Shown piece after piece: positions 21,269 through 63,965 of a stretch of 64,000 bases of DNA. The stretch's first letter is position 1. Each line of letters begins with the position of its first letter. The position numbers were made by a program, and so were the translations under genes. Under the pieces are notes generated by a model. The model was not told where the DNA came from. It ran no database searches and saw nothing but the letters and a program-made list of their open reading frames with translations. This DNA comes from Micromonospora sp. WMMD1155 (GTDB taxonomy: Bacteria; Actinomycetota; Actinomycetes; Mycobacteriales; Micromonosporaceae). The stretch is taken from assembly GCF_029581275.1 (NCBI RefSeq), contig NZ_CP120742.1, positions 532,501-596,500 of the forward strand, in the 5' to 3' direction.

Positions 21269-24200
21269 ATGAGACCGAGACGACTGGCGATCGCCAGCGT
21301 GGTCACCCTGCTCGGCGCACTGGCGTTGACCCCGCCGGCGAGCGCGAAGCCACCGTCCGAACCGGGCGCCCGCGACGGCCTGGAGGTCTACGTCGGAACG
21401 GTCGACGCGAAACAGCGGGACCAGCTGCGCGCGGCGGGGGTCGACCTCGGCCACGACGCGAAGACGGACTCGTCCGGCAAGACGACAGTCGAGACGGTGC
21501 TCAGCCGCCGGCAGGCGAAGCGGCTGACCGACCAGGGCGTCCCGTTGTCGGTGAAGAAGGTGCGCGGCAAGGACGCGTCGCAGGCGCTGCGGGAGCAGGC
21601 GGCGGCGGGCTGGACGGCGTTCCGGCCCTACGGGGAGCCGGGCGGTCTGCGCGACGAACTGAACGCCACGGCGGCCCGCTATCCCAAGCTGACCAAGGTG
21701 GAGACGATCGGCCGCACCCAGCAGGGTCAGCCGATCGTCGCCGTGAAGGTCACGAAGAACGCGCGGACCGTCGCCGACGGGAAGCGGCCCGCCGTGCTCT
21801 ACGCCGGCGCGCAGCACGCCCGCGAGTGGATCACACCGGAGATGACCCGCCGGTTGATGCACCACGTCCTGGACAGCTACGGCACCGACCAGGAGATCAC
21901 GAAACTCCTGGACACGACCGAGCTGTGGTTCCTGCCGGTGGCCAACCCGGACGGTTACGACTTCACCTTCACCCCCGGCAACCGGCTGTGGCGCAAGAAC
22001 CTGCGGGACAACAACGGCGACGGACAGATCACCTCCGGCGACGGCGTGGACCTCAACCGCAACTTCAGCTACAAGTGGGGGTACGACAACGAGGGCTCGT
22101 CACCGGAGACGAACAGCGAGACCTACCGGGGCCCGGGCCCCAACTCGGAGCCGGAGACCAAGGCCCTGGACCAGCTGTTCAAGCGGGTCGGGTTCGAGTT
22201 CTTCGTCAACTACCACTCGGCGGCCGAGCTGCTGCTCTACGGCCTCGGCTGGCAGGTCAGCACTCCCACCCCGGATGACGAGATCTACAAGGCGATGGCC
22301 GGGGACGACGCGCACCCGGCGGTGCCCGGTTACGACCCGGACATCTCCGCCGAGCTGTACACCACCAACGGTGACACCGACAGCCACGCCACCGTCCGGT
22401 ACGGCACGCTGGGCTTCACCCCGGAGATGTCCACCTGTGAGGCCGCCTCGGCGGTCGACCCGGACGACGAGTGGCGCCCGGAGGACTGCGTCAGCGGCTT
22501 CATCTTCCCCGACGACGAGACGTTGATCGCCGGCGAGGTGAACAAGAATCTGCCGTTCGCGCTGGCCGTGGCCAAGTCGGCGGCGGACCCGGACGAGCCC
22601 GTCTCGGTGGTCGGACGGAGCACCCCGGACTTCGTGGTGGACTCCTTCGACACGTCGTACGGGCGCACCCAGCAGGTCGCCGCGATCACCAGGCGGGCGC
22701 TGAAGAACGTGAAGATGCACTACACGGTCAACGGCGGGCGACCGAAGACCGTCGCGGTCCGCGAGTGGCGCGGCGGCGAGCGGTACGGCGGCACACACGA
22801 CGACTACTACGCGGAGTTGCGTGGCACGGTCGGCGGCACGAAACCGGGCGACCGGGTGGAGGTCTGGTTCACCGGCAACAAACCCCGGACCGGGGTGGTC
22901 GCCAGCGACCACTTCACCTACCGGGTGCACACCGACGTCGGCGGAGACGTGCTGATCCTCGCCGCGGAGGACGTCACCGGCCTCAGCCCGGCGCAGACCG
23001 GCACCACCGCGAAGTACGCCGACGAGGTCGCGGCGTCGCTGAGCGCCGCCGGGCGCAGCAGCGACGTGTACGACTTCGACGCGATGGGCCGCACGGCGCC
23101 GCACCCGCTCGGGGTGCTGTCGCACTACACGGCCGTGGTGTGGGAGACCGGCGACGACATCATCATGCGCTCCCCCGGCCAGGTCGCCGGCACCGCGGCC
23201 AAGGCCGCGCTGGAGACCGAGCTGGCCGTCCGGGACTACCTCAACGAGGGTGGCAAGCTCCTGGTCAGCGGCCAGTACGCGTTGTTCGCCCAGGGCGCCA
23301 ACGGCTCGTACGTCTACCACCCGGACGCGCCGCCGGAGTGCACCGACGCCGACGACCCCACCTGCCTGCCGCTGCTGAACGACTTCCAGCAGTACTGGTT
23401 GGGGGCGCACACCTACGTCAGTGACGGCGGCACCTCGCCGGAGGGAGAGCCGTTCCCGGTCGCCGGCCGCGACGACGCGTTCACCGGTTTCGCGGGGCAG
23501 CTCAACGCGGACGGCTCGGCGCAGAATCAGGGGCACACCGCGTCGTTCCTGACCACGTCGAGTTTCCTGCCGCCGGACGAGTTCCCGCAGTTCGCCAGCT
23601 CCGCGCCGGTGGGCTGGACCCGACCGGGTGGCGCGCCGTTCGACCCGCGTACGGGTGAGTGGTATCTGCACAGCGGGCAGGCCGACGAGTCGTACAAGCG
23701 GCTCACCCGCACTGTGGACCTCAGCGGGGCGACCAGCGGAGAGTTGCGCTTCTTCACCTCCTATGAGATCGAGCAGAACTGGGACTTCCTCTTCGTCGAG
23801 GCGCACGAGGTCGGCAGCGACGACTGGACCACCCTGCCGGACGTCAACGGCAAGACCAGCTCGGTCACCGGGGAGAGCTGCGCCTCGGGTTGGGACGAGC
23901 TGCACCCGTTCATCGCCCACTACCAAGGGCCCGGGTGCTCCCCCACCGGAAGCACCGGAAGCTGGAACGCGGCGACCGGGACGTCGAGCGGCTGGAAGGA
24001 GTTCGTCGTCGACCTGACCCCGTACGCCGGCAAGCAGGTCGAGGTGTCGATCACGTACGCCTCGGACTGGGGCTCCCAGGGCCTCGGCGTCTTCCTGGAC
24101 GACACCCGGGTGGTGGTCGACGGGTCGACCGTGGCGGAGACCTCGTTCGAGTCCGCCGACCTGGGCGGTTGGACGGTGGCCGGGCCTCCGGACGGCTCCG

Positions 24201-24373
24201 GTGGCAACGCCAACGACTGGTCACGCAGCCAGCAGGCGTTCGAGGAGGGCTCGGTGGTGGTCACCGGGGACACCGTGTACCTGGGCTTCGGGTTGGAGGG
24301 TCTCCCTCCGGCGGCCCGCGATGACCTGGTCGCCCGGTCGTTGACCCACCTCACCGGTCAACCCCGCCCCTGA
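21269..24373 (+). CDS. Secreted M14 zinc carboxypeptidase with C-terminal adhesive/CUB-like domains
   Basis: A 1034-residue exported peptidase. A signal peptide spans 1-26 (cut after PASA). The M14 domain covers about 115-490, with zinc ligands H183 and E186 in QHAREW, H316 in NYHSAAE, and catalytic E386 in FTPEMS. The remainder has an immune-inhibitor-A-like region with SYEIEQNWDFLFVEA and later GLGVFLDDTRVVVDG, probably beta-sandwich domains. It cleaves C-terminal residues from extracellular peptides. ATG 21269 has an ideal AAGGAGG site; the frame extends upstream without a signal sequence. It is unlinked in function to the glycan genes and probably scavenges nutrients. Confidence 0.9.
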   Translation: MRPRRLAIASVVTLLGALALTPPASAKPPSEPGARDGLEVYVGTVDAKQRDQLRAAGVDLGHDAKTDSSGKTTVETVLSRRQAKRLTDQGVPLSVKKVRGKDASQALREQAAAGWTAFRPYGEPGGLRDELNATAARYPKLTKVETIGRTQQGQPIVAVKVTKNARTVADGKRPAVLYAGAQHAREWITPEMTRRLMHHVLDSYGTDQEITKLLDTTELWFLPVANPDGYDFTFTPGNRLWRKNLRDNNGDGQITSGDGVDLNRNFSYKWGYDNEGSSPETNSETYRGPGPNSEPETKALDQLFKRVGFEFFVNYHSAAELLLYGLGWQVSTPTPDDEIYKAMAGDDAHPAVPGYDPDISAELYTTNGDTDSHATVRYGTLGFTPEMSTCEAASAVDPDDEWRPEDCVSGFIFPDDETLIAGEVNKNLPFALAVAKSAADPDEPVSVVGRSTPDFVVDSFDTSYGRTQQVAAITRRALKNVKMHYTVNGGRPKTVAVREWRGGERYGGTHDDYYAELRGTVGGTKPGDRVEVWFTGNKPRTGVVASDHFTYRVHTDVGGDVLILAAEDVTGLSPAQTGTTAKYADEVAASLSAAGRSSDVYDFDAMGRTAPHPLGVLSHYTAVVWETGDDIIMRSPGQVAGTAAKAALETELAVRDYLNEGGKLLVSGQYALFAQGANGSYVYHPDAPPECTDADDPTCLPLLNDFQQYWLGAHTYVSDGGTSPEGEPFPVAGRDDAFTGFAGQLNADGSAQNQGHTASFLTTSSFLPPDEFPQFASSAPVGWTRPGGAPFDPRTGEWYLHSGQADESYKRLTRTVDLSGATSGELRFFTSYEIEQNWDFLFVEAHEVGSDDWTTLPDVNGKTSSVTGESCASGWDELHPFIAHYQGPGCSPTGSTGSWNAATGTSSGWKEFVVDLTPYAGKQVEVSITYASDWGSQGLGVFLDDTRVVVDGSTVAETSFESADLGGWTVAGPPDGSGGNANDWSRSQQAFEEGSVVVTGDTVYLGFGLEGLPPAARDDLVARSLTHLTGQPRP

Positions 24374-24381
24374 CGGCGGGG

Positions 24382-24417
24382 AGGTGCGCCGGCGGTCCGT
24401 GGGCCGTCGGCGCACCT
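24382..24417 (+). terminator. Hairpin after the carboxypeptidase gene
   Basis: A 14-bp inverted repeat (24382-24395 with 24404-24417, one G-U pair) begins 9 nt after the stop codon. It is GC-rich without a U tract. A second hairpin with the same arm sequence follows at 24439-24474. Confidence 0.65.
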
Positions 24418-24466
24418 CGGGCGTACGCCGCATGGGCCGCCGGCGCACCTTCGGCGTACGGCGGGT
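24401..24466. repeat. Tandem 33-bp repeat, two copies
   Basis: Positions 24401-24433 and 24434-24466 are two copies of a 33-bp unit that differ at about six positions. Each contains GGCGCACCT and GGCGTACG blocks, which also pair with one another as inverted repeats. The array fills most of the gap between the carboxypeptidase and NAD kinase genes and may have arisen by duplication of a terminator hairpin. Confidence 0.6.
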
Positions 24467-24497
24467 GCGCCGGCCACCGATGTGATGAGCTGTACGG

Positions 24498-25430
24498 GTG
24501 TCGGGGCTGGGACTTGTGCTGCACCCCACCCGGGATGTCACCGAGGTGGTCGAAATCATCGAACGGTGGGCCACCCGCCACCACAAGACGCTGTTCGTGC
24601 GCGAGGAGGACCAGCACCGCGTCCCGTCCAGCGTCGAACCGGTGCCGGACGGCGAGGTCGCCAGCCGCGCCGACGCGTTGATCAGCATCGGCGGCGACGG
24701 CACCATGCTGGGCGCGCTGCGCTCCGCCGTCCGCGACCCGAAGCCGGTGCTCGGCGTACACCTGGGTCGGCTGGGTTTCCTTGTCGAGGTCGAGCCGCCG
24801 GAGTTGCCCGACGCGCTGAGCCGACTGCTGTCGAAGGACTTCACCGTCGAATCGCACGCCTGCCTCGCCTGCGACGTGTGCGGTGACGACGTCGTGGCGT
24901 TCAACGACATCGCCCTGGTCCGCCAGCCGGGCGCCGGCTTCGTCAGCGTCACGCTCGCCATCGACGGCCAGCAGTACGGCTACTACCGCAGCGACGCCGT
25001 GGTGGTCAGCACCCCGATCGGTTCGACGGCGTACAGCTACGCGGCCGGTGGTCCACTGATCTCCCCGGCGGCGGACTCGGTCGTGATCACGCCGGCGGCG
25101 CCGATGGCCGGCATCTCCCGGGCGGTCGTGCTCTCACCGGACGAGAAGATCCGGTTGGAGCTACAGCCCAACTCGTCGCCGGTCGTCGTGGAGATGGACG
25201 GGTTGGTGTTCCGCGACGCGGCGACGGAGGGGGCGGTGGACATCTCGTACCGCCGCGACGCCGGTCTGGTGGTCCGCTTCGACCCGTTGCGCTACCAGGA
25301 GCGCAACCAGTTGAAGATGACGCTGCTCGACCTGCCGTTCCTGCCCGAGCAGCTCCGCGAACTGCTCCCCGAAGAGCTACGCCGACGCAGCCAGGAACTC
25401 CCCCCACCCGCCGACCCCCCACCCTGCTGA
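24498..25430 (+). CDS. nadK: NAD kinase
   Basis: A 310-residue ATP/polyphosphate-NAD kinase. The GGDGT motif is at 65-69, followed by GVHLGRLGFLVEV, the FNDIALVR segment and STPIGSTAYSYAAGGP of the C-terminal domain. It phosphorylates NAD to NADP in the cytoplasm. GTG 24498 has no strong ribosome binding site. The C-terminus carries a Pro-rich tail after ELLPEEL. In many actinobacteria nadK sits beside recN and a TlyA-type gene; neither is present here, so the locus has been rearranged. Confidence 0.93.
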   Translation: MSGLGLVLHPTRDVTEVVEIIERWATRHHKTLFVREEDQHRVPSSVEPVPDGEVASRADALISIGGDGTMLGALRSAVRDPKPVLGVHLGRLGFLVEVEPPELPDALSRLLSKDFTVESHACLACDVCGDDVVAFNDIALVRQPGAGFVSVTLAIDGQQYGYYRSDAVVVSTPIGSTAYSYAAGGPLISPAADSVVITPAAPMAGISRAVVLSPDEKIRLELQPNSSPVVVEMDGLVFRDAATEGAVDISYRRDAGLVVRFDPLRYQERNQLKMTLLDLPFLPEQLRELLPEELRRRSQELPPPADPPPC

Positions 25431-25480
25431 CCCACCCCACCCCTGCGCTGCCCGGCCCCGCTTCGCCGCGCCACTGCGGT

Positions 25481-25537
25481 TGATCAAGAGGTTTGCGTCA
25501 CGACACGCCGGTGGGCATGACGCAAACCTCTTGATCA
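25481..25537. repeat. Perfect 20-bp-arm hairpin (element B1)
   Basis: Arms 25481-25500 and 25518-25537 are perfect inverted repeats starting TGATCAAGAG, with a 17-nt loop opening CGACACGCCGG. That 11-mer recurs exactly in the loop of element B2 at 31540-31550. The element lies between convergent nadK and pgm and could double as a terminator. GGCGCGG simple repeats (25541-25570) follow it. Confidence 0.8.
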
Positions 25538-25593
25538 CCGAGGCGCGGAGGCGCGGGAGGCGCGGAGGCGACGGCGCCGGGCGCTCGTCACCG

Positions 25594-25669
25594 AGATCCG
25601 CGCAACATCGGGGATCCTGCTGCCTGCGACAGCCGGGAGGCAGCAGGATCGGGGAAGTTGCGCGGATCT
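25594..25669. repeat. Dispersed double-arm hairpin, family A copy 1
   Basis: The outer arm AGATCCGCGCAAC (25594-25606) pairs perfectly with 25657-25669. A 6/6 internal loop follows, then a 13-bp inner arm GATCCTGCTGCCT pairing with 25638-25650, and a 12-nt apical loop. The outer arm and the TGCTGCCT part recur at 32064 and 63862. It lies 57 bp after element B1. Confidence 0.85.
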
Positions 25670-25726
25670 TGGGCGCCGCGGGATGGCCGGGCACACCCGG
25701 GCGTGGGCACCGCCGGACGCAGGGGG

Positions 25727-27370
25727 TCAGGCCTGGGTCAGGGCCTGGTCTACCAGGTTCTTGGCCTCTTCCTGGATCTTCTTCAGGTGGTCGGGGCCCT
25801 GGAAGGACTCGGCGTAGATCTTGTAGACGTCCTCCGTGCCGGAGGGCCTCGCGGCGAACCAGCCGGACTCGGTGCTGACCTTCAGCCCGCCGATGGGCGC
25901 GCCGTTGCCGGGTGCCGTCGTCAGCGTCGCGGTGATCGGCTCACCGGCCAGCTCGGTGGCGGTCACCTGCTCCGGGGAGAGCTTGCCGAGCACCGCCTTC
26001 TGCTCTCGGCTGGCCGGGGCGTCGATCCGGGCGTACGCGGGGGCGCCGAAGCGCTCGGCCAGCTCCGCCCAGTGTTCGCTCGGGCTGCGCCCGGTGGTGG
26101 CCAGGATCTCCGAGGCGAGCAGGCAGAGCAGGATGCCGTCCTTGTCGGTGGTCCAGGTGGAGCCGTCGCGGCGCAGGAACGACGCCCCGGCGCTCTCCTC
26201 ACCGCCGAAGCCGACCGCCCCGTCGAGCAGGCCGGGCACGAACCACTTGAAGCCGACCGGCACCTCCAGCAGCGGTCGGCCCAGGTCCGCGGCGACCCGG
26301 TCGATCATCGACGAGGAGACCAGCGTCTTGCCCACGGCGGCGGCCGGACCCCATTCGGTACGGGTACGGAACAGGTGACCGATCGCCACCGCCAGGAAGT
26401 GGTTGGGGTTCATCAGGCCGGCGTCCGGGGTGACGATGCCGTGCCGGTCGGCGTCCGCGTCGTTGCCGGTGGAGATCTGGTAATCCGCACGGGCGGCGAT
26501 CAGCGACGCCATGGCGTTCGGCGAGGAGCAGTCCATCCGGATCTTGCCGTCGCCGTCCAGGGTCATGAACCGCCAGGTCGGGTCGACCGTCGGGTTGACC
26601 ACGGTCAGGTCGAGTCGGTGCCGCTCGGCGATCTCGCCCCAGTACGCCACGCTCGCCCCACCGAGCGGGTCCGCTCCGATCCGCACCCCGGCGTCGCGGA
26701 TCGCGTCGATGTCGATCGCCGCGGGCAGGTCGTCGACGTAGTGGGCGAGGAAGTCGTACTCCCCGGTGGTGTCGGCGGCCCGAGCCCGCGCGTAGGTGAT
26801 CCGGCGGACCTCCTTGAGCCCGGCGGCCAGGATCGCGTTGGCGCGGTCCTGGATCCACCGGGTCACGTCGGTGTCGGCCGGCCCGCCGTTGGTGGGGTTG
26901 TACTTGAAGCCGCCGTCGTCTGGCGGGTTGTGCGACGGGGTGATCACGATGCCGTCGGCGAGCCCGCTGGTCCGCCCCCGGTTGTGGGTGAGGATCGCGT
27001 GCGACAGCGCCGGCGTCGGGGTGTAGCCGTCGCGGCTGTCCACCAACACGGTGACCCCGTTGGCGGCGAGCACCTCCAGCGCGTCCACGGCGGCCGGGGC
27101 GGAGAGCGCGTGGGTGTCGCGGGCGAGGAACAGCGGGCCGTCGAGGCCCTGCTCCCGCCGGTAGTCGCAGAGCGCCTGGGTGACCGCCAGGATGTGGTCG
27201 GAGTTGAACGCGTTGCGCAGGCTGGAGCCGCGGTGGCCGGAGGTGCCGAAGGAGACCTGCTGCGCCGGGTCCGAGGGATCCGGGTGTTCGGCGTAGTAGG
27301 CGGTGACCAGGCGCGGCACGTCGACCAGGTCGGCGGGCTCGGCGGGCCGGCCGGCACGGGGGTGGGTCAC
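25727..27370 (-). CDS. pgm: Phosphoglucomutase (alpha-D-glucose phosphate-specific)
   Basis: A 547-residue enzyme that interconverts glucose 6-phosphate and glucose 1-phosphate. It has [17 protein letters not shown] near residue 42, the phosphoserine loop [16 protein letters not shown], the metal loop DADADRHG, and a late [19 protein letters not shown] phosphate-binding motif. GTG 27370 follows GGAGGATCC. It lies 31 bp downstream of glgC on the same strand, so the pair supplies ADP-glucose for the alpha-glucan genes. Length and motifs are typical and the gene is intact. Confidence 0.95.
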
Positions 27371-27401
27371 TGCGGGATCCTCCTCGGGAAGTACGGGCCG
27401 G

Positions 27402-28634
27402 TCACGGCTCGACCTTCTGGCCCTTGCCGATCACCACGATGCCGTTGTCGGAGACGGTGTAGCGCTGCCGGTCCTTCTCCAGGTCGACGCCGATCTCGAC
27501 GCCCTCCGGGACGAACACGTTCTTGTCCAGGATGGCCCGCCGGACCACCGCGTGCCGGCCGATCTCCACACCCTCCATCAGCACCGAGCCCTCGACGTGC
27601 GCCCAGGAGTGCACCCGCACCTTCGGCGACACGATCGAGTTCTCCACCAGCGAACCGGAGATGACCACGCCCGGGGAGACCATCGAGCCGACCGCGCGGC
27701 CGACCCGCTCACCCCACTGGTGGACGAACTTCGCCGGCGGCCACGGCGGCTGCTCGGTGTAGATCGGCCAGTCGAAGTTGTACATGTTGAAGACCGGGTG
27801 CACGTTGATCAGATCCATGTGCGCGTCGTAGAACGAGTCGAGCGTCCCCACGTCGCGCCAGTAGCCGCGATCCCGGTCGGTGCTGCCCGGCACCTCGTTG
27901 TCGCGGAAGTCGTAGACGTTCGCCTCACCCCGCTCGACGAGCATCGGGATGATGCTGCCGCCCATGTCGTGCTTGCTGGTCTTGTCCTCCGCGTCGCGCT
28001 CGACCGCCTCGCAGAGGGCGCGGGTGGTGAAGACGTAGTTGCCCATCGAGGCGTAGATCTCGTCCGGCGCGTCGGGCAGACCGACCGCGTCGGTCGGCTT
28101 CTCGCGGAACGCCCGGATGCGCTTGCCGTCCTCGCCGACCTCGATGACGCCGAACTGGTCGGCCATCGACAGCGGCTGGCGGATGCCGGCGACGGTCACC
28201 GCGGCGCCGGAGGCGATGTGGTCCTCCACCATCTGCCGGGGGTCCATCCGGTAGATGTGGTCGGCGCCGAAGACGATCACGTAGTCGGGCTGCTCGTCGT
28301 TGATGAGGTTGAAGCTCTGGTAGATGGCGTCGGCCGAGCCGGCGAACCACCACGGGCCGCGACGCTGCTGCGCGGGCACCGGGGTCACGTAGTTGCCGAG
28401 CAGCGTGGACATCCGCCAGGTCTTGGTGATGTGCCGGTCGAGGGAGTGGGACTTGTACTGGGTCAACACGACGATCTTGAGATAGCCGGCGTTGGCCAGG
28501 TTGGAGAGGACGAAGTCGACCATGCGGTACATCCCGCCGAACGGGACGGCCGGCTTGGCCCGGTCCGTGGTGAGTGGCATCAGGCGCTTGCCCTCCCCAC
28601 CCGCCAGGACGATCGCGAGCACCTTGGCAGCCAT
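27402..28634 (-). CDS. glgC: Glucose-1-phosphate adenylyltransferase
   Basis: A 410-residue ADP-glucose pyrophosphorylase. The N-terminal nucleotidyltransferase opens with [16 protein letters not shown], followed by [21 protein letters not shown] and [10 protein letters not shown]. The C-terminal part has the left-handed helix regulatory domain with [11 protein letters not shown]. It makes ADP-glucose, the committed sugar donor for alpha-glucan. It is divergent from the GT4 glycogen/maltose-phosphate synthase, with 72 bp between them, and is read into pgm. A TAGCGT element 6 nt before ATG suggests a leaderless transcript. Confidence 0.96.
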
Positions 28635-28640
28635 GCCCCG

Positions 28641-28646
28641 ACGCTA
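28641..28646 (-). promoter_or_regulatory. -10 element of glgC (leaderless)
   Basis: On the minus strand TAGCGT is followed by a G-rich 6-nt spacer and the glgC ATG at 28634. No Shine-Dalgarno sequence fits in this space. Confidence 0.55.
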
Positions 28647-28692
28647 TCCACCCGCGTCGCACTTCACCACTCGTACGGGGAGTCTTCTGCAC

Positions 28693-28698
28693 TAGGGT
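28693..28698 (+). promoter_or_regulatory. -10 element of the glgA/glgM gene (leaderless)
   Basis: TAGGGT lies 8 nt before ATG 28707 with a G-rich spacer, mirroring the arrangement at glgC and glgE. Confidence 0.55.
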
Positions 28699-28706
28699 GC
28701 GGGGTC

Positions 28707-29912
28707 ATGACGGAACCCACCCCGCTGCGCGTCGATCTGCTCACCCGCGAGTACCCGCCGGAGGTCTACGGCGGGGCGGGCGTGCACGTCGAGTACCTGG
28801 CCCGGGAGTTGCGCCGCCGCACCGACGTCCGGGTGCACTGCTTCGGCCGACCGCGCACCGAGCCGGGCGTCACCGCGTACCCCGAACCGCCCGGCCTGAC
28901 CGGCGCGAACGCCGCGCTGCGGACGATGGGCGTCGACCTGGAGATGGCCGCCGGAACGGCGGGCACCGACGTGGTGCACAGCCACACCTGGTACGCGAAC
29001 CTGGCCGGACACACCGCGAAACTGCTGCACGGGGTGCCGCACGTGGTGACCGCGCACAGCCTGGAGCCGCTGCGGCCGTGGAAGGCCGAGCAGCTCGGTG
29101 GCGGGTACGCACTCTCGTCCTGGATCGAGCGGACCGCGATGGAGGCCGCCGACGCGGTGATCGCCGTGAGCAAGGGGATGCGGACCGACGTGCTGACGGC
29201 CTACCCGCAGATCGATCCGTCGAGGGTCCGGGTGGTCTACAACGGCATCGACACCGTGCAGTACGCCCCGGACCACGACACCGACGTGCTCGACCGACTC
29301 GGCATCGACCCGTCCCGTCCCAGCGTGGTCTATGTGGGAAGGATCACCCGACAGAAGGGGCTGCCGTACCTGCTGCGGGCCGCCCGGGAGTTGCCGGCGG
29401 ACACGCAGCTCGTGCTGCTCGCCGGGGCGCCGGACACGGCGGAGATCGCCGCCGAGGTGGAGGATCTGGTCGCGGAGTTGCGGGCCAACCGTTCCGGTGT
29501 GGTCTGGGTGGCCGAGATGCTGCCCAAGCCCGAGGTGATCCAGGTGCTCACCCACGCGACGGTCTTCGTCTGCCCGTCAGTGTACGAGCCGATGGGCATC
29601 GTCAACCTGGAGGCGATGGCCTGCGAGACGGCGGTGGTGGCCACCGCCACCGGCGGCATCCCGGAGGTCGTGGCCGGCGACGAGACGGGCCTGCTGGTGC
29701 CCATCGAGCAGGCCACCGACGGGTCCGGCACCCCCCTGGCCCCGGAGAGGTTCGTGGCCGACCTGGCGGCGGCGATCAACACGCTGCTCGCCGACCCGGC
29801 GCGTACCGAACGGTTCGGCCTGGCCGGTCGCCGGCGCGCGGTCGAGCACTTCTCCTGGGACAGCATCGCGCGGCAGACCCTGGAGGTGTACCGGGCAGTC
29901 GGCGCGGGCTGA
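28707..29912 (+). CDS. glgA: GT4 glycogen synthase / maltose-1-phosphate synthase (GlgA/GlgM)
   Basis: A 401-residue GT-B enzyme. The N-terminus has TREYPPEVYGGAGVHVEYLAREL; the donor half has VYVGRITRQKGLPYLLRAA and PSVYEPMGIVNLEAMACETAVVA. The size and GT4 type match mycobacterial GlgM, which joins ADP-glucose and glucose 1-phosphate to maltose 1-phosphate, rather than the ~480-residue GT5 GlgA of enterobacteria. Presence of glgE and glgB 2.3 kb away supports that role. Many databases call it glgA. ATG 28707 follows the glgC start by 72 bp in the opposite direction; the very long upstream frame is antisense to glgC. Confidence 0.92.
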   Translation: MTEPTPLRVDLLTREYPPEVYGGAGVHVEYLARELRRRTDVRVHCFGRPRTEPGVTAYPEPPGLTGANAALRTMGVDLEMAAGTAGTDVVHSHTWYANLAGHTAKLLHGVPHVVTAHSLEPLRPWKAEQLGGGYALSSWIERTAMEAADAVIAVSKGMRTDVLTAYPQIDPSRVRVVYNGIDTVQYAPDHDTDVLDRLGIDPSRPSVVYVGRITRQKGLPYLLRAARELPADTQLVLLAGAPDTAEIAAEVEDLVAELRANRSGVVWVAEMLPKPEVIQVLTHATVFVCPSVYEPMGIVNLEAMACETAVVATATGGIPEVVAGDETGLLVPIEQATDGSGTPLAPERFVADLAAAINTLLADPARTERFGLAGRRRAVEHFSWDSIARQTLEVYRAVGAG

Positions 29913-31077
29913 GGGAGACAGCGTCAGGCGACGTGCAGGGCAGCGGCGAGCTGGGCCAGTTCAGCCGGCGCGTCGCATTCCGCGACACGACGGCGACCAG
30001 GTTCCGTACCGCCGGTCGGTGGCGCACCTCACTCGGGGCGGCGCGTTCTGCGGCGAGCAGCGTCCGTCCCGCCCGGGGAAGGTCACCAGCCCGGGCGTGG
30101 GCGCGGGCCACGTCGAGGAGGTACGCGGCCCGGTGCTCGGGCGGCAGCAACCGCCACCCGTCGCCGGCTACCAGCCGCTCGTGCCGGGCGGTCGCCGTGG
30201 TGACGTCGCCCAGCGCCGCCTCGGCGACCACCCGGGCCGCGTCAACCGCCGCGACGCCGAGTTCGCGGCCCCTCTCCGGCACGACCTCCCGGGCGATGTC
30301 AGCGGCGCGGTCGAGGGACTGACGGGCGACCCGTTCGTCTCCCAGGCCGGCCGCCGCGAGGGCGGCCTGGAGGAGCAGCGTTCCGCGCAGCGACGAGCCG
30401 GCCGACGTGCCACCGGGCGCGCCGAAGCGGTCAGCGGCGACGAGCGCGGCATCCAGAGCCGACCGCCGTCGACCGCGGGAGCGCAGCGCCTGACACAGCG
30501 CCACGGTGGCAACGGCGGCCAGCCGGGGATCGCCTTCAGCGACGGACATCCCCCGGTCGGCGGCCAGCCAGGCCAACTCCCCCTGGTCGACCTTCACCAG
30601 CACCGGGGCGATGAGCGAATACACCGACACCAGCAGCGCACCCGTCCCGCCGGGGCGAGCGGCGTGCGCTTCGCGGACGGCGTCGTGCAGGTCGGGCAGC
30701 AGAGCCAGCAAGGCCGGGTACCGGGCATGCCGATAGCGTTGCTCGGCGTGCGCCAACCGGCCTCGCAGATCCTCGGCCGTCGGCGCTCGGGTCGCGTCCG
30801 GCGGGTGGTAGCGGGCCAGCACCGCGCGGACCCCCTCCACCCCGGCGACCGCCGGAGTCGGCCGCACGGGCCGCGTGGCCAGCAGGACCTCCACGTCGAT
30901 GCGGAGGGTCTCGGCGATCTCCCGAAGGTTGGACACCCGCTCCAGACGGCGTACCCCACGCTCGACCTTGTCCACCCAACTCTTCGACTTGCCGAGCCGG
31001 TCGGCGAACTGCTGCTGCGTCATGTTCCGCCGGACCCGCCACTGCGCGACCCGGCGACCGACCGGCAGCTCGTTCAC
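29776..31077 (-). CDS. XRE-family regulator with TPR-like C-terminus; probable 3' frameshift
   Basis: The N-terminal helix-turn-helix (about 8-62) has VAQWRVRRNMTQQQFADRLG and KSWVDKVERGVRRL. The remaining 310 residues are Ala/Leu-rich helices like the TPR region of Streptomyces-type XRE regulators. The open frame runs to 29776, overlapping glgA antisense by 137 bp, with an implausible Pro/Arg tail. Near 29985 a one-base shift would give a family-like ending, VAECDAPAELAQLAAALHVA, stopping at 29924, 11 bp past glgA. I infer a frameshift mutation or sequencing error. GTG 31077 is the likely start. It is co-directional with the small membrane protein upstream. Confidence 0.7.
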   Translation of the reverse strand: MNELPVGRRVAQWRVRRNMTQQQFADRLGKSKSWVDKVERGVRRLERVSNLREIAETLRIDVEVLLATRPVRPTPAVAGVEGVRAVLARYHPPDATRAPTAEDLRGRLAHAEQRYRHARYPALLALLPDLHDAVREAHAARPGGTGALLVSVYSLIAPVLVKVDQGELAWLAADRGMSVAEGDPRLAAVATVALCQALRSRGRRRSALDAALVAADRFGAPGGTSAGSSLRGTLLLQAALAAAGLGDERVARQSLDRAADIAREVVPERGRELGVAAVDAARVVAEAALGDVTTATARHERLVAGDGWRLLPPEHRAAYLLDVARAHARAGDLPRAGRTLLAAERAAPSEVRHRPAVRNLVAVVSRNATRRLNWPSSPLPCTSPDAVSLSPRRLPGTPPGSAARCCPRRSARPRAGDRPGRTVRYAPGRRAAC

Positions 31078-31093
31078 CGCCGGCCCGTCGCGC

Positions 31094-31291
31094 TCACCGC
31101 GCGACCCCCACCACAACCAGCAGGAGTACGACCACAGCGATCACGATGCCGTAGGCGTACTGGTGCCGGGTGAGCGGCGCCCGCGTCGGCCGAGCCGGAC
31201 CGAGCACCCGATCCCCGTCCGGTTGCGGAGGCCGCGCCCCCACAATCGGGTACACGGGCGGCAGCGGCCCATCCGGCAGACGCTCGTCCAA
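31094..31291 (-). CDS. 65-residue single-pass membrane protein
   Basis: TTG 31291 is preceded by GAGGAGG at ideal spacing. The protein has a Pro/Arg-rich hydrophilic N-terminal half (DERLPDGPLPPVYPIVG) and a C-terminal helix, YAYGIVIAVVVLLLVVVG, so it is probably tail-anchored with the N-terminus inside. The XRE regulator starts 16 nt further on, which suggests one operon and perhaps a membrane-linked control of the regulator. The long frame extending to 31573 is not supported upstream of the TTG. Function unknown. Confidence 0.6.
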   Translation of the reverse strand: MDERLPDGPLPPVYPIVGARPPQPDGDRVLGPARPTRAPLTRHQYAYGIVIAVVVLLLVVVGVAR

Positions 31292-31400
31292 CTGTGCCTC
31301 CTCGCGGCGCGACGAAGTGGTGGGAGATGCAGGTCGGGCGGGGAGCCGTTGCGTTTCCTCCGCCCGGCCGCTCGGGACGCTCCGCTGCTGACGAAGAGGA

Positions 31401-31493
31401 TCCCTGTCGCACTTGCGGATTCTGGAGGAGCGGGGCTGGATCGTCACCCGGCAGGGCAAGGGGTCGTTCGTGGCGCCGAACCCGCCCGCCTGA
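31401..31493 (+). pseudogene. GntR-family regulator remnant (3' end only)
   Basis: One frame reads SLSHLRILEERGWIVTRQGK followed by GSFVAPNPPA and a stop at 31491. This is the end of a GntR winged helix (recognition helix, wing RQGKGSFVA). No start or upstream half of the domain exists in any frame, so only the last 30 codons survive. It is followed after 23 bp by hairpin B2. The remnant points to deletion or rearrangement in this pocket. Confidence 0.6.
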
Positions 31494-31730
31494 GCCCGAG
31501 CACAACTTCGCTGTCTTGATCGTTGGCGGCTGAGCAGTGCGACACGCCGGGCGCGGTGCTGCTGAGGCGCCAACGATCATCGGCCGCCCGAATGCCACCA
31601 CAGGGCCGTGCTCCGGGAACTGCCCACCTGGCCCGTCCGCGTGATGCCCGACGGCTTGATCCACTCGACTTAGAGGAAACCGCGGCATCGAACGCGCAGT
31701 GATGCCGCGGTTTCCTGTAACGCGAGTGGA
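31494..31730. other. Gene-free pocket with two hairpins
   Basis: Apart from hairpins B2 (31517-31580) and B3 (31655-31735) no coding signal is present. It lies between a GntR remnant and a truncated antitoxin and looks like a site of repeated rearrangement. Confidence 0.5.
31517..31580. repeat. Long hairpin (element B2)
   Basis: TGATCGTTGGCG (31517-31528) pairs perfectly with 31569-31580, and a further 8-bp helix with one mismatch continues inward. The loop contains CGACACGCCGG (31540-31550), identical to the loop of B1 at 25501-25511 although the arms differ. Confidence 0.75.
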
Positions 31731-31735
31731 TCAAG
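31655..31735. repeat. Long double-arm hairpin (element B3)
   Basis: The outer arm CTTGATCCACTCG (31655-31667) pairs with 31723-31735. After a 6/6 internal loop, a perfect 16-bp inner arm (31674-31689 with 31701-31716) closes over 11 nt. The geometry matches family A (13, 6, 13-16, loop) although the arm sequence differs. Its right arm supplies the TGA stop of the AbrB-type gene. Confidence 0.8.
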
Positions 31736-31949
31736 GCGAGAGCGGCCGGTCAGGGGGCGGCCAGATGCCACTAACCCGACCGCGCATGTGTCGGACGAGC
31801 CGCTCCCCACGGGTGTCGGCACCGTGCACGCGCACGATGCGGAGGGCCCCACCGTCCTCGACCACATCGACCTCGTCGCCCTCGTGCAGGTTGTATCGCG
31901 CCCGAAGAGCTGCCGGGATGGTCACCTGGCCCTTGCTGTTCAATCGCAT
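31731..31949 (-). CDS. AbrB/VapB-type antitoxin, C-terminally altered
   Basis: The 72-residue frame has a SpoVT/AbrB DNA-binding domain at 1-45 (MRLNSKGQVTIPAALRARYN and DEVDVVEDG). ATG 31949 follows CGGAGG. In VapB-like relatives a toxin-binding tail follows; here it breaks after RGERLVRHMRGR into a Pro-rich end, and the stop codon comes from hairpin B3. No PIN-domain toxin gene lies next to it. I infer an orphan antitoxin that lost its partner when the hairpin region formed. DNA binding may persist. Confidence 0.65.
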   Translation of the reverse strand: MRLNSKGQVTIPAALRARYNLHEGDEVDVVEDGGALRIVRVHGADTRGERLVRHMRGRVSGIWPPPDRPLSP

Positions 31950-32063
31950 GCTCTGGACCTCCGTCACGTAATACCAGCGATACGTGACATGTTTCGGTGC
32001 GGGACCTCCGTGCCGGCCCGCCACCATCCGCGAACGCGGCCGTGATCCGCCCGTTCCCCGTGA

Positions 32064-32139
32064 AGATCCGCACAACGTCACCGAAACTGCTGCCTCAAAG
32101 CTCGCTGAGGCAGCAGTTTCACCGAAAGTGCGCGGATCG
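32064..32139. repeat. Dispersed double-arm hairpin, family A copy 2
   Basis: AGATCCGCACAAC at 32064-32076 pairs with 32127-32139 with some mismatches, and the inner arm GAAACTGCTGCCTCA pairs perfectly across an 8-nt loop. The outer arm and TGCTGCCT are shared with copies at 25594 and 63862. It lies in the divergent gap between the AbrB-type gene and glgE. Confidence 0.8.
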
Positions 32140-32206
32140 TGGCGCGCATCCCCAGAGGGCGGGGCGGACCGGCGGGCTTGGCCGCGCGCGAACGGATCTC
32201 GCGCAG

Positions 32207-32212
32207 TAGGTT
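32207..32212 (+). promoter_or_regulatory. -10 element of glgE (leaderless)
   Basis: TAGGTT is followed by a G-rich 6-nt spacer and GTG 32219. The same arrangement precedes glgC and glgA. Confidence 0.55.
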
Positions 32213-32218
32213 GGCGGG

Positions 32219-34401
32219 GTGACTGGACGGTTCCCGATCGAAGACGTCTCCCCCGTCGTCTCGTGCGGGCGGTACCCGGCCAAGGCGGTGGTCGACGAGC
32301 CGGTTCCGGTGTCGGCACGCGCCTACCGGGAGGGGCACGACGCGCTCGGCTGCACCGTGGTGTGGACCGGCCCGGACGGCACGGTCCGGCCGTTCACCCG
32401 GATGCGCCCCGGCGAGCCGGGCCAGGACCGCTGGCACGCCACCATCACGCCGGACGCCGTCGGCGAGTGGACGTTCTCCGTCGAGGCGTTCCAGGACCCG
32501 TACCTGACCTGGCAGAACGCGGTGACCAAGAAGATCGCCGCCGGGCAGGGCGCGGCCGACCTGGCCAACGACCTGGCCGAGGGCGCGCGGGTGCTCGCCG
32601 CCGCCCGGGACCTGGTGCCGGCCGCCGACCGACCCCGGGTCGCCGACGCGCTCACCGCGCTCGTCGAGACCGACCTGCCGCTGCCGCAGCGGGTCGGCCC
32701 GGCGCTCGCCCTGGCCGACCTGCTCTGGGAGCACCCGGTGCGAGAGTTGGTGACCGCCGGTGAGACGTACTCGATCTGGGTCGACCGCAAGCGGGCGCTC
32801 TTCTCCGCCTGGTACGAGTTCTTCCCCCGCTCGGAGGGGGCCGTGGGCGGCCGGTCCGGCACGTTCGCGACGGCCACCGACCGGCTGCCGGGGGTGGCCG
32901 CGATGGGCTTCGACGTGCTCTACCTGCCGCCGATCCACCCGATCGGCCGGGTCAACCGCAAGGGCCGCAACAACGCGCTCACCGCCGGGCCGACCGACGT
33001 GGGCTCGCCGTGGGCGATCGGCGCCGCCGAGGGCGGCCACGACACCATCCACCCCGACCTGGGTACGCCGGCGGACTTCCGGGCCTTCGTCCAGGCGGCT
33101 GCGGCGCAGGGCCTGGAGGTGGCGATGGACCTGGCGTTGCAGTGCGCGCCGGACCACCCCTGGGTGACGGAGCACCCGGAGTGGTTCACCACCCGGGCCG
33201 ACGGCAGCATCGCGTACGCGGAGAATCCGCCGAAGAAGTACCAGGACATCTACCCGGTCAACTTCGACAACGACCCGGAGGGCATCCGGGCCGAGGTGTT
33301 GCGGGTGGTGCTGCACTGGGTCGGCGAGGGCATCCGGATCTTCCGGGTGGACAACCCGCACACCAAGCCGTTCGACTTCTGGCACTGGCTGATCGCCGAG
33401 GTCAAGGCGGTCGACCCGGACGTGCTGTTCCTGGCCGAGGCGTTCACCCGCCCGGCGATCATGCACGGTCTCGGCAAGATCGGCTTCACCCAGTCGTACA
33501 CCTATTTCACCTGGCGCACGACGGCCGCGCAGATGCGGGAGTACTGCGAGGAGCTGGTCGAGTCGGCCGACTACATGCGGCCGAACTTCTGGCCCAACAC
33601 GCCGGACATCCTGCACGAGTCGTTGCAGCACGGTGGCCCGCCGATGTTCAAGATCCGGGCGGTGCTGGCCGCGCTGCTCTCCCCCTCCTGGGGCATGTAC
33701 GCCGGTTTCGAGCTGTTCGAGCACGTGGCCCGCCCGGGTGCCGAGGAGTACCTGGACAACGAGAAGTACGAGCTGCGCCCCCGGGACTGGGCCGCCGCCG
33801 AGGCGCAGGGTCGGTCGCTGGCCCCGTTCCTGACCACCCTCAACCGGGTACGCCGGGACAACCCGGCGCTGCACCAGCTGCGCAACCTGCGGTTCCACGA
33901 GATCGACAACCCGGCGTTGCTGTGCTGGTCGAAGCACGACCCGGAGACCGGCAACACGGTCATCGTGGTCTGCTCGTTCGACTCGCGCGAGGTGCAGTGG
34001 GGCAACACGACGCTGGACATGCCGGCGCTGGGCTTCGACTGGCACGAGCGGTTCACGGTGCACGACGAGTTGACCGGCACCAGCTACGACTGGGGTCAAC
34101 GCAACGCGGTACGGCTCGACCCGTACCTGCAACCCGCGCACGTGTTGACGGTGCGCCGCCCGGCCCCGCCGGCCGCGCCGGAACCGGCGGGCACCGAACC
34201 GGCGGACCTCACCGTCGCCGACGTGCCCGACGACCTCTCCGGCGGCACCGCACCGACGGCTCCGGCGCCGACGGCCACCGCACCGACGACCCCGGTGCCG
34301 ACCCCGCCCCGGCGGTCCGGCCCCGTTCCGACCCCTCCGCGCCGGTCGACCGCCCGCCGGTCCGCCCCGGCACCGACCGACGCCGCACCGAAGGACGCCC
34401 G

Positions 34402-34414
<13 letters not shown>
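32219..34414 (+). CDS. glgE: Alpha-1,4-glucan:maltose-1-phosphate maltosyltransferase
   Basis: A 731-residue GH13_3 enzyme that extends alpha-glucan by transferring maltose from maltose 1-phosphate. An N-terminal beta domain (1-100) and helical insert lead to the barrel with [30 protein letters not shown], the nucleophile region [14 protein letters not shown] and the acid region FLAEAFTRP. The canonical body ends near residue 655. After it comes a 75-residue Pro/Thr/Ala/Arg tail with repeated PTPPRRS, unusual for GlgE. glgB begins 13 nt inside its end, so the two are coupled. Confidence 0.95.
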
Positions 34415-36504
<2,090 letters not shown>

Positions 36505-63767: not shown

Positions 63768-63861
63768 GCATCGACACGGGGCCGGGCTGAGCAACGGCAG
63801 CCCGGCGCCGTGGGGCCGGGCTGAGCGGCCGGACGCGACGGCGCTGAACGGCCGTTGTCCC

Positions 63862-63942
63862 CAAGATCCGCGCAACATCAGGGATGTTGGTGCCTCCGCC
63901 ACGTGGGAGGCAGCACCATCAGGGAAGTTGCTCGGATCTTGG
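63862..63942. repeat. Dispersed double-arm hairpin, family A copy 3
   Basis: CCAAGATCCGCGCAAC (63862-63877) pairs with GTTGCTCGGATCTTGG (63927-63942) with one mismatch. After an internal loop, an inner arm containing TGCCTCC pairs with GGAGGCA across a short loop. The outer arm matches copies at 25594 and 32064. Confidence 0.82.
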
Positions 63943-63965
63943 CGCGGCGCGGCGCGGCGCGGCGC
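63941..63965. repeat. GGCGC pentanucleotide repeat, five units
   Basis: Five perfect GGCGC units start at the end of hairpin copy 3 and continue as GC-rich near-repeats to 64000. Similar GGCGCGG repeats follow hairpin B1 at 25541-25570. Confidence 0.75.

Follow-up and report, generated by a model that had tools for sequence, protein, structure and literature searches.

We propose that gene 3' ends in Micromonospora sp. WMMD1155 are furnished with interchangeable hairpins, probably acting in both directions, by a set of REP-like repeats; from sequence comparison, we put the probability of this reading at roughly 0.55. The elements form an extragenic, high-copy superfamily of palindromes, mostly GATC-footed, and they lie between genes, favoring 3' ends and above all convergent pairs. 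With arms that are unlike from family to family, a GATC foot in most and typical lengths, they are best read as REP-like repeats of actinobacteria.

The window, the whole 64,000-nucleotide stretch that was analyzed, holds six hairpins. B1 (25478..25540, + strand; family B, 63 nt) pairs 20 of 20 arm positions (25481-25500 with 25518-25537) around the loop CGACACGCCGG, read on the + strand, and scores 76.8 bits with model R1, in whose alignment it is included. It sits in a convergent slot between an NAD-kinase-like gene (24516-25430, + strand), whose matches fall short of the curated cut-offs, and pgm (25727-27370, - strand). A second hairpin, A1 (25590..25673, hairpin 25594-25669; family A, 84 nt), stands beside it in the same slot and scores 87.6 bits with model R2, again as a member of the alignment; no family A element was found at this slot in the relative G055 (93% mean identity) or in the other relatives' slots that were read. 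B2 (31514..31583, + strand; hairpin 31517-31579) belongs to a subfamily with GATCGTTGGC arms. C1 (31653..31737, hairpin 31655-31735; family C, 85 nt), called B3 in an earlier note on this DNA, extends into the 3' end of a MazE/AbrB-like ORF (31731-31958, - strand; PF04014 match) and scores 82.9 bits with model R3, whose alignment includes it. A2 (32060..32143, hairpin 32065-32138; family A) lies between that ORF and a divergent gene starting at 32219 on the + strand, and reaches 69.8 bits with R2 from outside its alignment. A3 (63860..63943, hairpin 63861-63942; family A), scoring 87.5 bits with R2 as a member of its alignment, occupies a convergent slot; the orthologous slots read in relatives hold families H, I and J or other hairpins.

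All six were found where the earlier note had placed them, and they are not random: their RNA folds, those of GC-rich hairpins, have z scores of -3.4 to -8.9, with none of 200 shuffles as good for any. The arms bear GATC near the tip as described, and the 11-nt loop CGACACGCCGG is indeed identical in B1 (from 25501) and B2 (from 31540), with A1 lacking one base of it.

Abundance was assessed in a 1.664 Mb sample of the 7.34 Mb genome, drawn from bases 1 to 5,895,520, with the final 1.4 Mb outside it and one sample stretch overlapping the window by 1.6 kb. GATC-tipped hairpins numbered 35, against 1 in one Markov-chain control, and a laxer rule gave 91 against a control mean of 13.6. The superfamily comprises 78 sites in the sample, namely B2 and 77 model matches merged by hand, with second-strand matches, those shared between models and weak ones (E about 0.0008 or worse) merged or omitted. 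The B alignment took 29 of 35 B-like sequences, leaving out odd lengths, B2, one gapped and one false sequence; the C alignment took 17 of 19 candidates. Overlap with called genes exceeds 30 bases at none of the 78 sites, as counted with a home-made gene finder that missed two genes in the window; one weak element of G055 lies inside a called ORF.

The earlier note had tied the loop 11-mer to the hairpins. The 11-mer is in excess genome-wide, with 47 occurrences against 23 of the reversed pattern (P = 0.006), but only 4 of the 13 copies in the sample lie in hairpin loops and 9 lie elsewhere; the comparison with 0 of 7 for the reversed pattern (P = 0.25) involves too few copies to count alone. 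A strict arm test at 30 of the 47 loci, which overlooks looser hairpins visible by eye, gave 3 with 13 of 14 bases paired, against 2 of 600 random positions. Among loop 8-mers, CGACACGC, GACACGCC and ACACGCCG tie for the top rank with one unrelated 8-mer, each in six hairpins, and GACACGCG, from the other strand, occurs in five hairpin loops.

B1 and B2 come from different subfamilies, and each has one or more additional copies: the identical 20-nt arms of B1 are dispersed among the window, L091, L127 and L141, and a further B2 copy lies at L140:15584. Subfamilies have typical lengths and near-identical dispersed copies, and where their arms differ, double changes preserve the pairing. Covariation scores exceed those of shuffled alignments for B (0.383 vs 0.138) and C (0.264 vs 0.135), more weakly for A (0.161 vs 0.114). 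The pairing that survives double changes and the many copies across the genome bear out the suggestion of an element maintained for structure. Within the bacterial family, B is found in 27 of 44 (E up to 0.01) and C in 10 of 44 (E up to 0.001), and the B model also finds matches in further families within the order and the class.

The placement of the elements is strongly biased. After three contexts were corrected by hand and 3 of the 78 sites dropped at edges, 75 elements divide into 28 convergent, 37 tandem and 10 divergent, with 12 convergent expected from intergenic length (P = 1.8e-6). In tandem regions, 30 of 37 elements are closer to the upstream stop (P = 0.0002); the four B elements there are too few to relate loop orientation to transcription. 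The ten divergent elements speak against a role in termination, as a terminator makes little sense in such a position. Hairpins at large follow the same order: a repeat or any hairpin scoring at least 12 is present in 83 of 131 convergent regions (those of at least 60 bp), 125 of 471 tandem and 23 of 223 divergent ones, and non-repeat hairpins reach 195, 81 and 26 per 100 kb, respectively, against 3.6 in coding DNA.

Convergent slots in this genome and G055 agree closely in occupancy, with 6 occupied in both, 0 and 1 in a single genome and 38 of 45 empty of elements in both (P = 8.6e-7); that most convergent slots are empty counts against the main reading. Occupants need not match, as 2 of 6 co-occupied convergent slots and 1 of 3 tandem ones hold a different family. 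At three slots, we count at least 14, 6 and 9 state changes among 24, 16 and 20 genomes. Family assignment at slot 1 was visual, and a locus counted only if both genes were present; the 24-tip tree for this slot omits 14 more distant genomes with both genes, whose slots contain no element by eye or hairpin scan. Slots 2 and 3 were each represented by 20 hand-picked regions, of which 6 and 5, respectively, are not tree tips, and at slot 3 the tips G004, G002 and G041 are scored as empty from gap length alone. The 14 changes at slot 1 compare with a shuffled mean of 13.2, that is, no phylogenetic signal, which recombination between strains could also explain; presence alone requires 5 changes against 6.2. 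A hairpin position kept among relatives with its family sometimes swapped suggests interchangeable parts that stop transcription or form a barrier.

How such parts would act is constrained by sequence. None of 38 tandem repeat elements, counted before the three contexts were corrected, has at least four T in the 9 nt past the element, compared with 10 of 99 other tandem hairpins, and a consensus terminator scan of 24000-33000 reported none of the five elements there. Lacking a T-tract, the elements are therefore not classical intrinsic terminators, and that candidate was rejected. A known Rfam structure was likewise rejected for 22000-36000, with no match at the gathering score (A3, at 63861, lies outside that stretch). 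In the sense orientation, G.U pairs outnumber A.C mismatches (82 vs 55, P = 0.036), which fits RNA as the folded molecule; the bias is weak, with 1005:853 in a slid-register control and no single family significant. We infer that the elements are 3'-end hairpins, most likely transcription terminators, often bidirectional, or barriers to 3' exonucleases.

Since any family appears to do, the slot would keep a hairpin rather than a sequence. We propose a model where a new copy inserts into an occupied slot, the two hairpins coexist, as B1 and A1 would at present, and the redundant one is then lost by short-repeat deletion. Two informative sister pairs, G002 vs G165 and G094 vs G113, resemble deletions and are likely deletion derivatives, with the direction unproved. 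The comparison of orthologous loci proposed in the earlier note yielded no clean insertion boundary because intergenic flanks diverge too fast, nor was a footprint with target duplication found at these loci. A Y1 transposase (PF01797; RAYT/IS200-type) is present in 9 of 31 genomes searched; this genome, a single contig that is 100% complete, has no match, and a resident RAYT was rejected as the mover of the repeats here.

A possible, though clearly less probable, view is that the repeats are purely selfish REP-like miniature elements, functionless, spread by some transposase and surviving only where insertion is harmless, at gene 3' ends; coincident slots would then reflect inheritance and a few tolerant landing sites. 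The dispersal of near-identical copies, the patchy presence of B and C between genera and the double occupancy of some slots are all in keeping with this, as is the greater number of family A elements here than in G055 (9 vs 3 and one partial over 400 kb, by labels we assigned). Against it, each of the six occupied convergent slots whose orthologues were mapped is filled in G055 as well, and 6 of 9 empty convergent slots of at least 60 bp here bear another hairpin scoring at least 12. Family H also keeps arms that are 92-98% alike while its loops fall to 53-59%.

BIMEs and gyrase offer a precedent for DNA-level sites of a topology protein, and it is conceivable, if rather unlikely, that the present elements serve a nucleoid or topology protein at the supercoils of convergent transcription, with the GATC foot and the loop core as recognition marks. 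The enrichment between convergent genes would suit such a role, as would the top-ranked loop 8-mers and the GATC carried by 58 of the 78 elements at both feet and by 18 at a single foot, a mark that families F, G, H and I share. The model alignments derive from a GATC-anchored scan, however, and the GATC frequency is therefore partly built in; many arms share little besides the foot, and neither family J nor the hairpins in slot 2 of G082 and G083, which fill the same slot, have it. Neither the GATC foot nor the GACACGC loop core is needed by a terminator; this counts against the main reading and hints at recognition at the DNA or protein level.

Least probable is template switching at quasi-palindromes, which would create and repair palindromes so that arms match without selection. 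The earlier note had entertained such copying, and some observations favor it: alignment cells in B changed on both sides number 95, against 17 on one side and 48 unpaired (cells, not events), one orthologous slot contains loops of both orientations, as inverted arms would allow, and one orthologous A pair has 3 of 10 differences mutually compensating around an identical loop core that is present at none of the other loci examined, so occasional templated correction is possible. As the main cause it fails against typical lengths, subfamilies with dispersed copies and the bias to 3' ends, and de novo palindromes were rejected on the first two grounds. At one slot, moreover, different species (G149, G101 and G055) share a C-C mismatch in their H arms; palindromes are therefore not promptly corrected, and the shared mismatch argues against an automatic correction that is in any case not needed.

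If interchangeable 3'-end hairpins are indeed what these repeats supply, gene-end signals are mobile, exchangeable parts. Probably hundreds of slots in 160 genomes of the genus would form a comparative system for the rate at which one terminator gives way to another with function preserved, and the annotation of 3' ends where U-tract rules fail, in bacteria of high GC content, would benefit. It would also point to the spread of REP-like elements by a new route, without a resident RAYT. We further offer, as a speculation more doubtful than the reading it extends, that actinobacterial gene ends share a pool of mobile hairpin terminators in which selection keeps the hairpin, its filler can turn over at about the pace of speciation, and one machinery recognizing the GATC foot, the GACACGC core or both moves families with unlike arms.

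By title and the start of the abstract, in literature largely outside subscription journals, no description of these elements was found; the main text of PMC12306157 contains none of the words Micromonospora, Streptomyces, GATC or RAYT. REP sequences are extragenic palindromes, dispersed in the genome, whose two hairpin sides show compensatory changes (PMC3116915); they have been proposed to act in termination and to affect mRNA stability (PMC3733652). The present elements resemble REP/REPIN-RAYT systems in these features and in high copy number. They differ in that GTAG and CGTC feet occur in 2 and 21 of 156 feet (2 and 11 in control pieces), so neither tag marks them; their foot is instead a GATC within the paired stem, a word absent from the main text of PMC3733652, their length is 63-85 nt, and no Y1 match accompanies them in this genome. 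Paired uptake sequences often form terminator hairpins (PMC2267715), and those of Neisseria and the Pasteurellaceae likewise are dispersed inverted-pair repeats doubling as terminators; here, by contrast, the repeat unit is the complete hairpin, and one role would be shared by several families whose arms are unlike. In Streptomyces clavuligerus, 55 positions of bidirectional transcript 3' ends have been reported (PMC8269248); the passages of that paper to which we refer mention no repeat family, and its main text contains neither "convergent" nor "palindrom". What our elements have in common with bidirectional terminators is their position between convergent genes.

We find that the six long hairpins singled out in the earlier note (B1, A1, B2, C1, which the note called B3, A2, and the sixth, here A3) are real, folding as RNA far better than shuffled sequences (z -3.4 to -8.9). 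Our analysis demonstrates dispersed copies, kept pairing, placement at gene 3' ends and persistent intergenic slots with exchange of repeat families. The genome of Micromonospora sp. WMMD1155 is one contig of 7,344,427 bases, with the window at bases 532501-596500. We sampled the window and 80 stretches of 20 kb, evenly spaced across the first 5.9 Mb (1.664 Mb in total). This sample holds 35 hairpins tipped with GATC, whereas a Markov control yielded 1. A laxer rule gives 91 against 13.6, with GATC-to-GATC lengths peaking at 55 nt (11) and 74/75 nt (32) and lesser groups at 61 and 69.

Four subfamilies carry the most weight here: B (63 nt including feet; arms TGATCA-GA-GTT), H (77 nt; resembling B, with a bigger loop), A (84 nt; arms AAGATCCGCGCAAC) and C (85 nt; arms TTGATCCACTCGG). 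Covariance models of B, A and C (R1, R2 and R3) kept 77 sites, counted after merging by hand, and 78 with B2, which extrapolates to roughly 340 elements per genome. Of the 78, 58 have GATC within the outermost 14 nt of each arm, 18 have it there in one arm only and 2 in neither. Because the A and C models each find the other's elements, A and C are probably a single architecture of foot, TC-NNN-GA inner bulge and loop-closing TCC/GGA. Loops of both A and B, despite unlike arms, contain GACACGC on either strand, in hairpins assigned to families by eye; CGACACGC occurs in 6 sample hairpins and GACACGCG in 5.

Pairing has been kept. In B, 92.8% of cells are paired (29 elements, 63 columns) and the covariation score is 0.383, against 0.138 when shuffled and 0.022 to 0.102 in slid registers. 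Both sides changed in 12 of 23 pairs, a count not clearly above shuffles (10.6; reached in 69/500); the excess sits in double-changed cells (95 vs 31). Scores for C (17 elements) and A (12) are 0.264 vs 0.135 and 0.161 vs 0.114. All three alignment sets were gathered by a scan anchored on GATC, which partly predetermines its presence in them, and they count related copies repeatedly. H at two orthologous slots (6 and 4 genomes, ungapped) has arms 92% and 98% identical and loops 53% and 59%.

At E ≤ 0.01 the B model matched 51/101 genomes of the family, spread over 27/44 genera. In the order sample (E ≤ 0.001) it matched 53/150 genomes, 37 of them outside the family, and in the class sample (E ≤ 1e-5) 38/197, with 35 of these outside the genus. 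The C model matched 21/101 genomes of the family at E ≤ 0.001, in 10/44 genera. Per-genome match numbers in these searches are lower bounds, and the strict filters also drop weak matches.

Genes were called with a home-made finder and three hand corrections; within the window the finder had overlooked an HTH gene and a MazE/AbrB-like ORF (PF04014; 31731-31958, minus strand), which is flanked by C1 and A2 and whose stop codon C1 overlaps. Among 75 elements away from stretch edges, 28 are convergent, 37 tandem and 10 divergent (P = 1.8e-6 vs intergenic length), and 30 of the 37 tandem ones lie closer to the upstream stop (P = 0.0002). Hairpins in general obey the same rule: regions of at least 60 bp hold a repeat or other hairpin in 83/131 convergent, 125/471 tandem and 23/223 divergent cases. 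No T-tract followed any of 38 repeats examined. On the sense strand G.U mismatches exceed A.C by 82:55 (P = 0.036), a weak sign that the folded molecule is RNA.

Slots persist between relatives. Over 400 kb compared with G055 (blocks >2 kb 84-96% identical, mean 93%), 45 matched convergent pairs comprise 6 occupied in both, 0 in WMMD1155 only, 1 in G055 only and 38 in neither (Fisher 8.6e-7). The corresponding tandem counts are 3, 1, 2 and 150, and 0/51 divergent pairs are occupied in either genome. Families differ at 2 of the 6 co-occupied convergent slots (A in WMMD1155, H in G055) and at one of the 3 tandem ones (A and B, respectively).

Slot 1, which holds B1 and A1, is the convergent gap between pgm (above its curated NCBIfam cut-off; best named protein matches in Micromonospora species, 91% identity) and a NAD-kinase-like gene that we label ppnK, its NCBIfam matches being below curated cut-offs. 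A B element occupies it in 17/24 genomes, WMMD1155 included; by eye these elements fall into three subtypes, and their loops can face either way. Of the seven scored as none, three have another hairpin (G040, G004, G140) and G002 a remnant. On the gene tree of the 24 genomes the state of the slot changed a minimum of 14 times (shuffled mean 13.2) and shows no phylogenetic signal; scored for presence only, it needs 5 changes (shuffled 6.2). The draft assembly of a relative, G042, breaks at this slot, C16 ending at 134,352 just past ppnK and C20 beginning with pgm, and therefore such repeats may lie behind gaps in drafts.

Two further slots (slots 2 and 3) are filled in relatives by H, I (GCGATCTTGCAGTTACTG...), J (GGGGCAGCTCTACAGG...), B or other hairpins, or are empty. 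On 16 and 20 tips their states need a minimum of 6 and 9 changes, respectively, and phylogenetic signal is partly retained (fraction of shuffles with as few changes, 0.017 and 0.039). The sisters G055 and G149 hold H at both where WMMD1155 holds A, and thus A probably took the place of H. B and A together at slot 1 may be an intermediate of such replacement. Comparisons of G002 with G165 and of G094 with G113 look like deletions that took out most of an element.

We propose a model where the hairpin would act on transcripts ending there, from one side or both; any family would serve, and replacement would run as gain, then loss. The earlier note had suggested maintenance for structure or palindrome-generating copying. 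One orthologous A pair with 10 differences, 3 mutually compensating, around an identical loop core found at no other locus examined, fits either templated correction or fast compensation. Against the copying idea, a C-C mismatch in the H arms of slot 2 is common to G149, G101 and G055, and G162 has it at slot 3, which shows that mismatches can survive speciation or travel with a variant. A domain search found, at its sensitivity, no resident Y1 transposase in WMMD1155.

GC-rich tandem arrays, often C-rich on the left and G-rich on the right, border many A elements (L092:8936-9075, L112:18597-18691 and L123:2571-2681, among others). Arrays occur in 15/24 A-only slots vs 49/656 element-free slots (P = 5e-11), in 4/12 B-only slots (P = 0.01) and, not significantly, in 4/27 C-only slots; they may be born of slippage at the hairpin. 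Two further hairpin families are dispersed in the genome, one lacking the GATC foot, with TATACCTGTGAGTCAT arms and a 4-nt loop (L082:2426, L094:5759, L098:13213, L107:4481), the other with GCCCGGC at the arm ends and a 26-nt loop (L069:9212, L087:10448, L109:15595, L125:16843).

Our literature search found no paper describing these elements or family exchange at fixed slots, which is not proof of absence. The component parts are known in kind, as REPs, repeat-derived terminators and bidirectional terminators.
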